Shown piece by piece: positions 622-48,806 of a stretch of 50,074 bases of DNA. This DNA comes from a virus. The notes beneath the pieces are model-generated. The model searched no databases. It was given only the letters and a program-made list of their open reading frames with translations, and was not told the origin of the DNA. A program made the position numbers and the translations under genes. The stretch is from positions 1 to 50,074 of IMG/VR virus record IMGVR_UViG_3300022707_001484, one strand, 5' to 3'. The first letter of the stretch is position 1. Each line of letters opens with the position of its first letter.

Positions 622-800
622 TGGATAATGATTTTGAGAAATTAAATGATTGTCCATTTTGCGGTGGAAAATGCGATCTTCCAAAATATTCTTTGACAAG
701 TGTTGTTTGCTCCAAATGTGGGACTATTTTCAATTTTGTTTCAAATACTGAAAAAGGGACAATCGAACTTTTTAATAAAAGAGTGGTAAAAAATGGCTAG
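621..800 (+). CDS. Lar-like zinc-finger protein
   Basis: The product has 59 residues. CPFCGG (residues 11-16) is followed by VVCSKCGTIF, and then TIELFNKRV near the C-terminus. The pattern CPFCG...C..CG...A/E..FN.R is that of the Lar/restriction-alleviation family, small phage proteins of about 60 residues; in Rac and related prophages Lar modulates type I restriction. Here the usual WN.R ending reads FNKR. The gene overlaps the terminase start by eight bases. An anti-restriction role is inferred from the family only. Confidence 0.6.
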   Translation: MDNDFEKLNDCPFCGGKCDLPKYSLTSVVCSKCGTIFNFVSNTEKGTIELFNKRVVKNG

Positions 801-1449
801 TGTTGTCGGATACCAACCAGGGAAAGAAGCGATTAGAGCTCACAAGAGCCTTGCTCGAATCCGTTGTCTAATTTGGGGAATCAAAAGCGGAAAGACAGAG
901 TGGGGAGCAGCCGAGACGGTTCATTATGCAAGACATAATTCAAATAAATTGGCTTGGTGCGTAAGTTCATCGTTTCATAACCTTGAGGCGTGTATTACTG
1001 CACTTAGAAAACTTTTAGATTATTACAAAGTTGGCTATAAATACAAAATTGCCGAGCATTCTTTTTATCTAACCAATGGAACCATCATTGCATGCAGATC
1101 GGCGGATCAATATGACAATTTACGTGGTCCAAACGTTGATTTCTTATGGATTGATGAAGCTGCATTTGTCAAAGAGGAAGCTTGGTTTATCTGTCAAGAT
1201 AGATTGGCTGCCACCGATGGCGATATCATTCTGACAACAACAACAGACGTAAGAAATTGGATTTGGGAATTGTGCCTTGAAGGCGGAATGCCTTCGTCAA
1301 TGGCGTATGGCGTTTTTGAGAGCAAAAAAGCAAATGGCAAGAAAGACCACATGTATTTTATCAGCCATTGGCCGACGTGGCATTTCCCATGGGTACCTCA
1401 AGCCTGGATTGACGACAAAAAAACTGAAAAGGCCAAGAGTTATATTTGA
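793..1449 (+). CDS. terL: Terminase large subunit, N-terminal ATPase part (frameshifted)
   Basis: This is the ATPase half of the DNA-packaging motor. Walker A is GIKSGKTE (residues 29-36), Walker B plus catalytic glutamate is VDFLWIDE (115-122), and TTTTDV about 25 residues later fits the coupling motif. The frame then stops at 1449, while the nuclease half continues in the next frame. In the A7 run at 1417-1423, removing one A joins IDDKK directly to LKRPRVIFDRDIGALF and restores a normal terminase of about 475 residues. This is most simply a sequencing or assembly indel in a homopolymer, but a recent mutation or +1 recoding cannot be excluded. No separate small terminase was recognised upstream. 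Confidence 0.85.
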   Translation: MASVVGYQPGKEAIRAHKSLARIRCLIWGIKSGKTEWGAAETVHYARHNSNKLAWCVSSSFHNLEACITALRKLLDYYKVGYKYKIAEHSFYLTNGTIIACRSADQYDNLRGPNVDFLWIDEAAFVKEEAWFICQDRLAATDGDIILTTTTDVRNWIWELCLEGGMPSSMAYGVFESKKANGKKDHMYFISHWPTWHFPWVPQAWIDDKKTEKAKSYI

Positions 1450-2224
1450 CCGTGATATTGGGGCTTTATTTTCTTCACATGGAACGGCCGTTTTCAATTA
1501 TGTTTGGGAGGCATTGTCTCGAGCGCCATTAATACAAAGTCAAACGGCGCAATATGTTATTGGCCTTGACCTTGCCAAAGAGCAGGATTTTACAGTTATT
1601 ACAATAATGGACGGAGACGGCCGAGTCTTCAAAGTTATTCGATTTCAAAAAGTAGATTACAAAATCCAGGTCGAAAGAGTTGAGGAACAAGCGAAACTTT
1701 GGAATGCAATCGTTGTTCTCGACAGAGCAAACGTGGGAAATGTTATTCAAGAACTTTTAAGAGAAAAAAATGTCAGAATCTATCCTATGGACATGAACAG
1801 CGCCGAAGTCAAAACTTCATTGATTCAAGAATTGCAAGTAGCATTTGAAAATAAATCAATCAAATTAATTGATCCGAAAGCAGAATGGGGCACTGCAGAC
1901 GACAAACAAATGTATGAGGAATTAGGATATTATGCAACAAAATTAACACCAGGACGAAAGCAATTAAGTTATGGAGCGCCAAGCGGATTCCATGACGATT
2001 GTGTGGTTTCTTTAGCTTTGGCAAATTGGGGAAGAAGACACGGTCTAGCGGGTGGTGGACTGATAGCGGCACAAGTGGGCGTCGGTCTTAAAGATTGGGA
2101 AGAGACAATGGCAAAAGCAAAAAATAGAAAAAATGTAAGAAGAATCACCGCAAATCCGTTAAAAAGGTATTATGGACAACAGTCAAAACTCGGTTTTAAA
2201 TCGGGTGGAAGGTTTTGGAGGTAA
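1277..2224 (+). CDS. terL: Terminase large subunit, C-terminal nuclease part (frameshifted)
   Basis: This is the RNase H-like nuclease half of the terminase. The true in-frame portion begins near 1418; the residues from the nominal ATG at 1277 are out-of-frame translation of the ATPase gene. Acidic active-site motifs are IGLDLAKEQD (D98 in this frame), IVVLDRANVG (D149) and GFHDDCVVSL (residues 238-246, HDD), the expected three-aspartate set. The FDRDIGALFSSHGTAVF linker is typical of the junction between the ATPase and nuclease domains. Because all catalytic residues of both halves are intact, the split probably does not mean an old pseudogene. Confidence 0.85.
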   Translation: MKAECLRQWRMAFLRAKKQMARKTTCILSAIGRRGISHGYLKPGLTTKKLKRPRVIFDRDIGALFSSHGTAVFNYVWEALSRAPLIQSQTAQYVIGLDLAKEQDFTVITIMDGDGRVFKVIRFQKVDYKIQVERVEEQAKLWNAIVVLDRANVGNVIQELLREKNVRIYPMDMNSAEVKTSLIQELQVAFENKSIKLIDPKAEWGTADDKQMYEELGYYATKLTPGRKQLSYGAPSGFHDDCVVSLALANWGRRHGLAGGGLIAAQVGVGLKDWEETMAKAKNRKNVRRITANPLKRYYGQQSKLGFKSGGRFWR

Positions 2225-7861: not shown

Positions 7862-7879
7862 GACATGAAAAAAAAGTGA

Positions 7880-7931
7880 ACGGATTGTTCACCAAATACT
7901 CGCTGTTATTTGGTGACAATCCGTCTATTTT
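7880..7931 (+). terminator. Rho-independent terminator after the portal-MuF unit
   Basis: An inverted repeat pairs ACGGATTGTTCACCAAATA with TATTTGGTGACAATCCGT with a single bulged base, an eight-base loop and the T-rich tract CTATTTTTC. The left arm also contains GAAC-N5-GTTC, repeated almost exactly at 48611. Confidence 0.8.
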
Positions 7932-7969
7932 TCTTGACCCGATCCGTTTAAATCAGTTATTTTTAATAC

Positions 7970-10465
7970 ATGAACCAATTTCTAGAAAAAAGTAATGTCT
8001 TACTTTTAAATGATGTTAGCGGAAAAACCGGAAAAGAATGGGACGTCGTTCTCATCGAATCGGGACTATCTCTAAACAATAGATTTTATTCAAATCAAGT
8101 ATTAGAAAGTGCGCTTAGTCTTTTTGAAGGCGTCAAATGCTGTGCTTTCTTAGAGGGTGACGAACTCAATCACCGCGACCAGGGCAACGCTCAAAGAAAT
8201 CCTTCAGGACCATCAAAAAATGTCGTTGGTTGGTTTGAAAATGTAAGATTTGAAGAATTTCAAAAGCCTGACGGCTCAAAGGCCCATGGCATTATTGCGA
8301 AATTCCATATTCTTCCTAGTCATCAATGGCTAATGGAAGATTTAAAACATTCTTTTAGCCATGGAAAAGCCGATTTGCTAGGTTTCTCAATAGACGCTCA
8401 CGGCGAATCACGCGGGGGAATGGTTGACGGAAAAGAAGCCCTTATCGTTGAAAAAATTACACAAGTTGAATCAACCGACGTTGTCTCTAGCCCAGCGGCG
8501 GGAGGCCAAGTTCTCCGCATTGCTGCAAGTCAAGAAAAAGGAAAGTCAGGTATGAAAAATATTCGAAAATTTGCTGAGAAACAAGGACTCAAACAAGAAG
8601 AGGACGAGTCCGATGAAGCTTTTGCAAAAAGAGTTTTGGAGGCTTTGGAATCAAAAACGCCTAAAGAAGACGAAAACCCTCTTGGCAATTTCATAAGACA
8701 AATTTCTGAAGAAAAAGGAATTTCGACAAATGTCATAGCTGAATCGGCACACCTGGAAAAAGGTCAACTTGCCTTAATTATGAGTGGAAAAATAAAAAGA
8801 CCACCAGACGAACGGCTTAAAAAAATGGCCAAGGCTTTGGGGGTTTCATTTGAGGAACTTAAAAACAAAATACCCGAAAGCGTAAAAGAAGTAGACGGAG
8901 CTTTTATAACTGATCAAGAAACGGAGTTAGCAATGAAAACCGCAGAACAAATTAAAGAAGCTGAAAAGAAACTTGCAGAAGCGCAAAAAGCTTCAAATAT
9001 TAAAATGGGTGAACTCCTGGTCAAAGAAGCTTTGATTGAATGTGATTTGCCAAAGCAAGCAAAAGAAAAAATCACAAAACTCTTTGAAGACAAAGAAGAC
9101 GTGACTAAAGAGGGTGTCGACGAAGCCATAAAAGAAGAAAAAACTTATATTGCTTCATTCAAAGAGAAAGGCACAGGTCAAGTGACAAATCTTGGTGACG
9201 CTCATAATGATAATGACGATGAAGCTTCGCGTATAAAAGTCAACGACAGCCAAAGAGAAAAATTTGATAAGGCTTGGGACGGAATGTACGCCATGGAAGA
9301 TATTGACGGCGTTCCAAAGTTTTCCAGTTTAAACGAAGCTTGGAGAGCTTATAACGAAAACAATAGAAATGCTCATGGTGGCCAAGAAGAAGTATCTCAC
9401 AATATTTTTGAATCGATTGCCCGAGCTTTTCCTAGAAAAATCTCATATGATTTTGGCGATCCTTACAAGAAACATGAAAGAAGACTAAAAGAAAGTTGGG
9501 TCAGAGAATCGACGGAATGTTTAAGAGAGGCCACAACTACAAGTGATTTTTCAGTTGGTTTTGGTCAAGCCATGTTTCGCAGATTGCAGATAGAATACAC
9601 TCAAGATCCTAGAAATGATTGGCGTAAAATCATATCTAGTATTGAAAATTTAAAAGACGCAACCAACACATTTTCAATTGTCAGACTCGGTGAAACTAAA
9701 GAGCTGCCAATTGTCAGTGAAAAGGGAACGTATCAAGAATTGAATCCGACTCGGGCTGAAGAAGTTGAGGTTATCACTCCTGAAAAGCGTGGTGGCTTAG
9801 AGATCGTCACTTGGGAAGACGTTTTGGCAGACAGAATCGGAATCATCAGACGTATTCCTAAAAACCTTGCCAGAGCTTCAAACATAACAGTTCATAAAAA
9901 AGTTTGGGACGAGATTGAATCAAATCCAACAATGCAAGACGGAAACCCTCTATTTGATGCAGCTCACAATAATATTATTTCCGGCAATCCCGCGCTTTCT
10001 TATGCGAATGCGGTCGTTGGGGTAACAGCTTTAAGAAACCAATTGGCTTTTGAATCAAATGAAAAATTAGGTTTAATGCCAAAATGGTTGATCACAGCAG
10101 TTGAACAAGAAGCGTCAGCCGAGGAAATAATTGCGTCACTGGCAAAAGCAACATCAGCCGAAGATTCAACACTCAAAAACGTTTTGAAATCAAAATTTGG
10201 AATGGAAGCGCTTGGAACAATTGGACTTGGCAGAACAGCAGGGACAACTTTGTTTTGGTATATCGCAGCAGCCGGACGAGACGCCGAAACAATCGCCGTC
10301 GGTTTCTTGGGTGGACGTGACAGACCTGACATTTTCGTTCAAGGTATTGATACGCCAACTTCCGGATCAATGTTTGACGCAGATAAAATAACTTACAAAA
10401 TTAGATTAGTTTGTGGTGCAAAAGTTGTAGATCACCGTTGGATTCAACGTTCTGCAAATACTTAA
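7970..10465 (+). CDS. Fused prohead protease, scaffold (with XRE HTH) and major capsid protein
   Basis: The 831-residue polyprotein has three parts. Residues 1-190 are a capsid maturation protease: H68 in ELNHRD, VVGWFENVRF, S140 in LLGFSIDAHG, and STDVVSSPAAGG, as in phage U35/S78-like proteases. Residues 195-430 are a charged helical scaffold region with a complete XRE-type helix-turn-helix at about 237-303 (FIRQISEEKGIS...GKIKRPPDERLKKMAKALGV). Residues 430-831 resemble Mu gpT-type capsid proteins: PLFDAAHNN near 654, LMPKWLITAVEQEASAEEI, and LFWYIAAAGRD near the end. Protease-capsid fusions are known; an HTH inside the scaffold is unusual. In-frame Met codons at residues 195 and 322, the latter after GGAG, might give internal starts. 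No separate capsid gene exists elsewhere in the window. Confidence 0.8.
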   Translation: MNQFLEKSNVLLLNDVSGKTGKEWDVVLIESGLSLNNRFYSNQVLESALSLFEGVKCCAFLEGDELNHRDQGNAQRNPSGPSKNVVGWFENVRFEEFQKPDGSKAHGIIAKFHILPSHQWLMEDLKHSFSHGKADLLGFSIDAHGESRGGMVDGKEALIVEKITQVESTDVVSSPAAGGQVLRIAASQEKGKSGMKNIRKFAEKQGLKQEEDESDEAFAKRVLEALESKTPKEDENPLGNFIRQISEEKGISTNVIAESAHLEKGQLALIMSGKIKRPPDERLKKMAKALGVSFEELKNKIPESVKEVDGAFITDQETELAMKTAEQIKEAEKKLAEAQKASNIKMGELLVKEALIECDLPKQAKEKITKLFEDKEDVTKEGVDEAIKEEKTYIASFKEKGTGQVTNLGDAHNDNDDEASRIKVNDSQREKFDKAWDGMYAMEDIDGVPKFSSLNEAWRAYNENNRNAHGGQEEVSHNIFESIARAFPRKISYDFGDPYKKHERRLKESWVRESTECLREATTTSDFSVGFGQAMFRRLQIEYTQDPRNDWRKIISSIENLKDATNTFSIVRLGETKELPIVSEKGTYQELNPTRAEEVEVITPEKRGGLEIVTWEDVLADRIGIIRRIPKNLARASNITVHKKVWDEIESNPTMQDGNPLFDAAHNNIISGNPALSYANAVVGVTALRNQLAFESNEKLGLMPKWLITAVEQEASAEEIIASLAKATSAEDSTLKNVLKSKFGMEALGTIGLGRTAGTTLFWYIAAAGRDAETIAVGFLGGRDRPDIFVQGIDTPTSGSMFDADKITYKIRLVCGAKVVDHRWIQRSANT

Positions 10466-45939: not shown

Positions 45940-46026
45940 GGGGAGGTAGCTCAGTGGCAGAGTACCATCATGAACGGCCGTTCTTTAGAATGGAAGTCGC
46001 AGGTTCGAGTCCTGCCCTCCCCTCCA
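45940..46026 (+). tRNA. tRNA-like gene with enlarged anticodon arm
   Basis: The acceptor is GGGGAGG with CCTCCCC, the D arm is GCTC...GAGT with AGTGGCA loop, and the T arm is GCAGG TTCGAGT CCTGC; CCA is encoded at the 3' end after a U. The anticodon region (45965-45993) has 29 bases instead of 17. CCAT can pair with ATGG at its ends, and it contains the palindrome GAACGGCCGTTC, or alternatively CCGTTC TTTA GAATGG. No normal seven-base loop with U33 results, so the anticodon is unknown. The discriminator U with CCA is typical of tRNA-Gly or tRNA-Cys. It could be a disrupted tRNA, a decoy or a tRNA-derived regulatory RNA. Confidence 0.6.
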
Positions 46027-48563: not shown

Positions 48564-48610
48564 AGCATATCACCGTAACTCCTTGAAATGAAAAGCTTTA
48601 AAGAAAAAGA

Positions 48611-48657
48611 GAACGATCTGTTCACCAAATGACTTATAAAATTATATAAATAGTCAT
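48611..48657 (+). repeat. Operator-like repeat and dyad
   Basis: GAACGATCTGTTCACCAAAT (48611-48630) differs at three central bases from GAACGGATTGTTCACCAAAT at 7878. Both hold GAAC-N5-GTTC. Here it is followed by a dyad ATGACT/AGTCAT (48629-48657). The 243-base gap between 48564 and 48806 otherwise holds nothing I can name beyond a GC-rich GGCGGCGG stretch near 48753. Confidence 0.45.
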
Positions 48658-48806
48658 AACCCCCTAAGAAACAACAACTTACGACAATAAACACCCCCTA
48701 AATGTCAAATGTAAACGTTTGCTCACATTAAAGAAAAAACTTAACGTTGGGACGGCGGCGGCTTTCCCTTAGCGCCTTCTCAATAACCTCTTAAAGAAAG
48801 TGATTC

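Follow-up and report, generated by a model that had tools for sequence, protein, structure and literature searches.

An XRE-type helix-turn-helix domain inserted between protease and scaffold in a phage protease-capsid fusion protein

What is a repressor-type helix-turn-helix (HTH) domain doing inside the precursor of a phage major capsid protein? The window analysed here, a 50,074-nucleotide stretch of IMG/VR virus record IMGVR_UViG_3300022707_001484, contains an open reading frame (7970..10465, + strand) for an 831-residue fusion of prohead protease, HTH, scaffold and major capsid protein, an architecture common to four relatives, L001, L002, L063 and L064. The capsid domain (residues 521-826; 9530..10447, +) matches Pfam family PF25209, Phage_capsid_4, at 83.1 bits against a cut-off of 27, and its model adopts the HK97 fold, with Foldseek matches to HK97 and encapsulin; PHROG head-protease profiles also match this part of the protein. 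The protease region (residues 1-190; 7970..8539, +) matched no Pfam family in the profile search. By tblastn, residues 5-229 weakly resemble Arthrobacter phage proteins annotated as capsid maturation proteases (E=2e-3), and the region is similar to Microcystis phage Mae-JY22 (E=2e-15) and to a Methanoculleus virus. The proteases of phages Rings and CN1A are among the Foldseek matches of the full-length model, and S140, S168 and D170 are conserved in alignments A1 and A9. We tentatively assign this putative protease to the Arthrobacter capsid maturation type, on a weak likeness of sequence and structure. The scaffold region (residues 322-520; 8933..9529, +) is modelled with a long helix, residues 315-356, directly after the HTH and with low-confidence stretches within 400-527, ahead of the HK97-fold capsid domain. 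The full-length AlphaFold2 model, built from an alignment of 32 sequences, has a mean pLDDT of 71 and a pTM of 0.44, at which the relative placement of the domains is not reliable.

Is the HTH real? An initial annotation, made from the letters of the DNA, had placed a full Cro/CI-like HTH at about residues 237-303 (8678..8878, +), and profile search and structure prediction both uphold that assignment; its coordinates hold on recalculation, residues 238-303 corresponding to window positions 8681-8878. In the whole protein, Pfam HTH_26 (PF13443) scores 25.4 bits against a cut-off of 22 and HTH_3 scores 23.1 against 23, while a 73-residue cut-out scores 30.3 bits with HTH_26 (E=5e-7) and 29.1 with HTH_31 (cut-off 27). 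These Cro/C1-type families are placed at residues 238-300, HTH families exceed their cut-offs in all four relatives as well, and the same residues are matched by repressor families of PHROG. Modelled by AlphaFold2 as a single sequence, residues 195-322 (mean pLDDT 80.5) take the five-helix order of an XRE domain and not the helix bundle of a scaffold. The model superposes on SinR, including the SinR-DNA complex 3zkc, at 1.4-1.5 Å over about 61 residues, and equally closely on 434 Cro and CapH; the Foldseek E-values are modest, none falling below 0.001, which is usual when a domain is this small. Within the full-length model the HTH block, at a pLDDT of about 82-95, is among the most confident parts and is flanked on either side by linkers below 50. 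By profile and by model, the HTH in the capsid precursor is thus a genuine folded XRE domain, more than a chance resemblance. It shares fold and helix order with SinR, 434 Cro and CapH, and the 434-derived match also has its KRP-type loop; unlike these proteins, it is embedded in a structural precursor, and its DNA binding is putative.

How widespread is this arrangement? The same fusion with HTH occurs in four other IMG/VR contigs, at 77% (L001), 71% (L002), 61% (L064) and 60% (L063) identity, so that five separate contigs share one in-frame architecture. More distant homologues, namely L003, L004 (Actinomadura), L058 (Crossiella) and Mae-JY22, have homologous protease and capsid parts and are collinear with the window protein (Mae-JY22 over 97% of the query) but differ from it in their 27-29% identity and in having no HTH. 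Profile scans found no HTH in 43 other fusions, comprising 32 further Phage_capsid_4 proteins and 11 of the L003 type. Among 35 Phage_capsid_4 proteins the HTH families matched only the three lineage members then known, and a further 13 proteins added L063 and L064 and no others. No HTH was found, either, in the stand-alone proteases of phages Rings and Yappy or of Methanoculleus virus L4768. Searched by tblastn in 50,697 phage records, the HTH returned repressors and unnamed proteins, none of them an annotated head protein, and a scan of GTDB species genomes with alignment A3 returned only two actinobacterial relatives, both without HTH. The capsid family PF25209 as such has 10 matches in 396 actinobacterial genomes. 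In alignment A9, and also in A1, the HTH cassette is inserted after the protease and before the scaffold relative to HTH-less homologues, fused and unfused alike. The suspicion that the insert is unusual is borne out, in that the HTH-bearing fusion was found in this lineage only. In the open-access literature, which our search mainly covered, we came across no description of a protease-capsid fusion that contains an HTH. Another domain gained by proteins of this kind is DUF6582 (PF20223), which precedes the protease in L058 (residues 73-147) and in one further member of alignment A8.

The protein itself belongs to a broad and known kind, the prohead protease/major capsid fusion, and the inserted repressor-type domain is what sets it apart. 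NF045541, NF045540 and PHROG families 4523 and 133 describe proteins that, as here, begin with a protease and end with a capsid domain of the Phage_capsid_4/Mu gpT type, a middle region lying in between. In the window protein the two NCBIfam models match the capsid part only and fall short of their cut-offs (133.7 against 525 and 115.4 against 475, respectively); its protease is of another type than in those fusions, and it has the HTH in addition. In Arthrobacter phage Rings gp23 and Curtobacterium phage Yappy gp55 a homologous protease is followed by a scaffold-like tail, but the capsid protein is encoded by a separate gene and there is no HTH.

Does every copy of such a fusion carry protease and HTH into the capsid? 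In phage lambda, the protease gene C contains the nested scaffold gene Nu3. An in-frame internal start with a Shine-Dalgarno (SD) sequence between protease and scaffold, the hallmark of the C/Nu3 arrangement, is found in the window sequence as well, and like Nu3 within C it would give scaffold without protease. This predicted start, M195 (8552..8554, +; AAGGA, 7-nt spacing), lies at the protease/scaffold junction, and a second predicted start, M322 (8933..8935, +; GGAG, 5-nt spacing), lies directly behind the HTH. Four internal methionines are conserved in all five HTH genomes; only M195 and M322 have an SD, of 4-5 nt, in every one of them, a pattern that position alone produces in 37 of 815 columns. 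At M322 the SD is kept although the encoded residues differ, being ETE in three genomes and EKD in two. At the gene's own start the window and L001 lack an SD, and the other three genomes have one of 4 nt at most. Distant relatives also have an ATG or GTG with AGGAG, AGGAGG or AAGGAG at 5-nt spacing, 17-29 residues after the AGG motif of the protease. This junction start is present in L003, L004, L058, L073-L078, L080, L081 and L083 and was not found in L006 or L079 at the SD threshold used. An SD of at least 5 nt accompanies 12 of 26 start codons at the junction compared with 16 of 620 elsewhere (p=2e-11, an optimistic value because the sequences are related and the rows not independent). A windowed analysis of synonymous conservation across three sequences was without significant result; it is SD conservation on which the case for internal starts rests.

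From these signals we propose that M195 is likely the start of an HTH-scaffold-capsid product and that M322 may be the start of a scaffold-capsid product without HTH, so that the gene probably makes three nested products, the full-length protein included. Since the HTH is downstream of a family-wide internal start, it would likely sit near the N-terminus of the HTH-scaffold-capsid product. The strong SD at the junction in distant fusions suggests nested, protease-free products throughout the family, and the shared start suggests a possible way for such phages to avoid one protease per capsid subunit. By a rough estimate, 415 full-length copies would amount to about 24 MDa compared with about 27 MDa of room in an interior with an assumed radius of 20 nm; being tied to that radius, the figures are suggestive only. 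A scaffold domain carried on the capsid protein is also known from HK97, where it makes up the N-terminal portion of that protein and points inward (PMC10275583). The window differs from both lambda C/Nu3 and HK97 in having protease, scaffold and capsid in one gene, to which an HTH and another internal start are added.

Has the HTH kept a function, and is that function DNA binding? The domain is under purifying selection at the sequence level: dN/dS is about 0.12 (0.08/0.65) between the window protein and L001, 0.02 (0.01/0.58) between L064 and L063, and 0.05 (0.07/1.45) between L002 and L063. Within the trio of L002, L063 and L064, moreover, the HTH is 90-97% identical, above the 66-73% of the protease. 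The HTH is therefore not a passenger. The five domains fall into two types, one in the window and L001 and the other in L002, L064 and L063, with 46-54% identity between types. L002 is a mosaic whose residues up to about 420 are like L063 and L064 and whose capsid part is like the window protein (84%); the HTH type thus travels with protease and scaffold. Positions invariant across the HTHs include S252-T253 and I275-K276-R277-P278-P279, located where XRE domains typically touch the DNA backbone. The recognition-helix region, which together with the IKRPP loop spans residues 264-279 (8759..8806, +; helix from the model), differs between the two types. The HTH carries a net charge of +2 to +4, against negative values for each of the other parts, protease, scaffold and capsid. 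We read the positive charge and the invariant S-T and IKRPP residues, combined with a type-specific recognition helix, as signs of retained DNA binding; the smallness of the charge counts against this reading. On balance, we consider it moderately probable that the HTH still binds DNA.

The main alternative to DNA binding is a purely structural role, in which the XRE fold has become an oligomerisation or spacer module of the scaffold, acting through protein-protein contacts (scaffold-scaffold, scaffold-portal or in placing the protease), and has lost its DNA binding. The modelled position of the HTH directly before the scaffold helix would suit such a role, as would its joint inheritance with protease and scaffold in L002 (residues 1-420 like L063 and L064) and the fact that most positions varying between the two types lie outside the signature residues of the fold. 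That the XRE fold can serve outside repressors is indicated by a Foldseek match to methylphosphonate synthase (6b9s), which is an enzyme and contains an XRE-like domain. Against a structural role stand the invariant IKRPP loop and S-T residues and the fact that the HTH is the only positively charged domain; nor would a spacer need a second start, M322, that removes the HTH and nothing else. We regard the structural role as possible but rather unlikely.

If the HTH does bind DNA, where might its target lie? A palindrome, GAACRGATTGTTC, precedes the fusion gene in all five HTH genomes, and in the window the conserved site GAACGGATTGTTC (GAAC-N5-GTTC; 7878..7890, +) is a candidate operator. In its form GAAC(A/G)GATTGTTC it lies in the left arm of a terminator-like hairpin that is followed by a T-rich run (7880..7932, +), kept in all five genomes just before the gene and just upstream of a promoter-like motif, TTGACC-18-TATTTT (7934..7963, +). 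The TTG box and a TAYTTT-like box of this motif hold one fixed position in 5/5 genomes, about 6 bases separating the second box from the start codon. Since promoter-like matches occur near chance level over the first 20 kb, it is positional conservation that speaks for this one. The upstream layout looks like a terminator and then a promoter whose transcript would have hardly any leader, in keeping with the lack of an SD at the gene start. Elsewhere in these genomes GAAC-N5-GTTC sites are rare. The motif has a second copy, GAACGATCTGTTCACCAAAT (48611..48630, +), which agrees at 17 of 20 bases (3 mismatches), with 0.02 matches expected in shuffled sequence; the 13-mer with up to two mismatches occurs in the window at chance level (5 found, 3 expected), so that only the 20-mer copy goes beyond chance. 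This copy lies in a 190-bp non-coding element (window 48565-48755, G001:C1:25017-25209) that is 90% identical between the window and G001, more alike than the neighbouring genes, and the copy is present, its position kept, in both genomes where the element was found. In G001 about 4 kb separate the element from the terminase gene downstream, and it is a candidate cos/pac site, origin or operator. Gene order suggests that the contig and G001 are circularly permuted relative to each other, the end of the window matching the region upstream of the terminase. The large terminase itself is encoded in two overlapping frames, 793-1449 and 1277-2224 (window 793-2224), a split that is either a sequencing error or a real frameshift, the gene being one intact 478-residue frame in L063. 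A tRNA gene is also present in this phage contig, at window 45940-46023.

The conserved palindrome is a lead for regulation by the HTH. The case for it as a target rests on its presence in 5/5 upstream regions, the second, non-coding copy and the adjoining conserved promoter-like motif. A role at the HTH's own operon is less sure, because the palindrome is nearly the same across both HTH types, showing none of the co-variation that we looked for and would have expected, because it overlaps a terminator-like hairpin, whose RNA structure may account for some of the conservation, and because three relatives encode a separate XRE protein that could bind it instead. It also lies some 45 bp ahead of the promoter-like -35 box, which is unusual for a simple repressor site.

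We propose that a protease-scaffold-capsid fusion acquired an XRE/Cro-type domain at the hinge that joins its protease to its scaffold, and that selection has since maintained the domain in this lineage. Initiation at M195 and M322 would most likely add two shorter products to the full-length form, three nested products in all; by analogy with HK97, the HTH would lie in the prohead interior and be removed at maturation. Sequence and model establish the fold, insertion and conservation of the HTH and the conservation of start signals and palindrome, whereas use of the internal starts, DNA binding, its target, the feedback and the removal are inferences. If the HTH still binds DNA, unassembled precursor could act on its own operon via the upstream palindrome, a feedback that would match capsid synthesis to assembly. 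Taken as a whole, this is the reading we favour, tentatively and with somewhat less than even confidence.

The palindrome may instead belong to another regulator, either the separate 75-80-residue XRE protein encoded in G001, G002 and G003 or a host factor, the capsid HTH being unrelated to it. The existence of that separate gene and the lack of co-variation with the capsid HTH type speak for this; but selection on the capsid HTH would then go unexplained, and the separate protein has no known target. We think this unlikely, though worth serious consideration. Separate XRE genes of this size lie upstream of the terminase at L065:3389-3631, L066:2994-3227 and L067:4844-5071, and a counterpart in the window would fall beyond its start.

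A bolder version of the favoured feedback makes the capsid precursor itself a sequence-specific transcription factor. The HTH of the unassembled protein would bind the palindrome at its own promoter, assembly would set capsid expression by hiding the HTH in the prohead, and the two internal starts would set the share of regulator-bearing subunits. We consider this version quite doubtful. More doubtful still is DNA handling in the prohead, in which the HTH would mark or gather phage DNA, tie procapsids to the packaging site or meet incoming DNA before its removal by the protease. The inward position expected from the HK97 analogy would allow it, and the second palindrome, within the element upstream of the G001 terminase, is the sole hint of packaging. 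Yet the net charge of the HTH is small, scaffold is normally gone before or during packaging, and the element occurs in only two genomes among the sequence examined. Finally, a passenger or artefact, whether chance fusion, assembly error or decaying remnant, has its rarity and nothing further in its favour and is refuted by conservation, namely the same in-frame architecture in five separate contigs and the low dN/dS of the HTH.

To our knowledge, how tailed phages match late gene expression to head assembly is little understood. In this lineage, whose capsid precursor contains a repressor-type domain and whose fusion gene follows a conserved palindrome, the question can be put to a direct test with one protein fragment and one DNA fragment.
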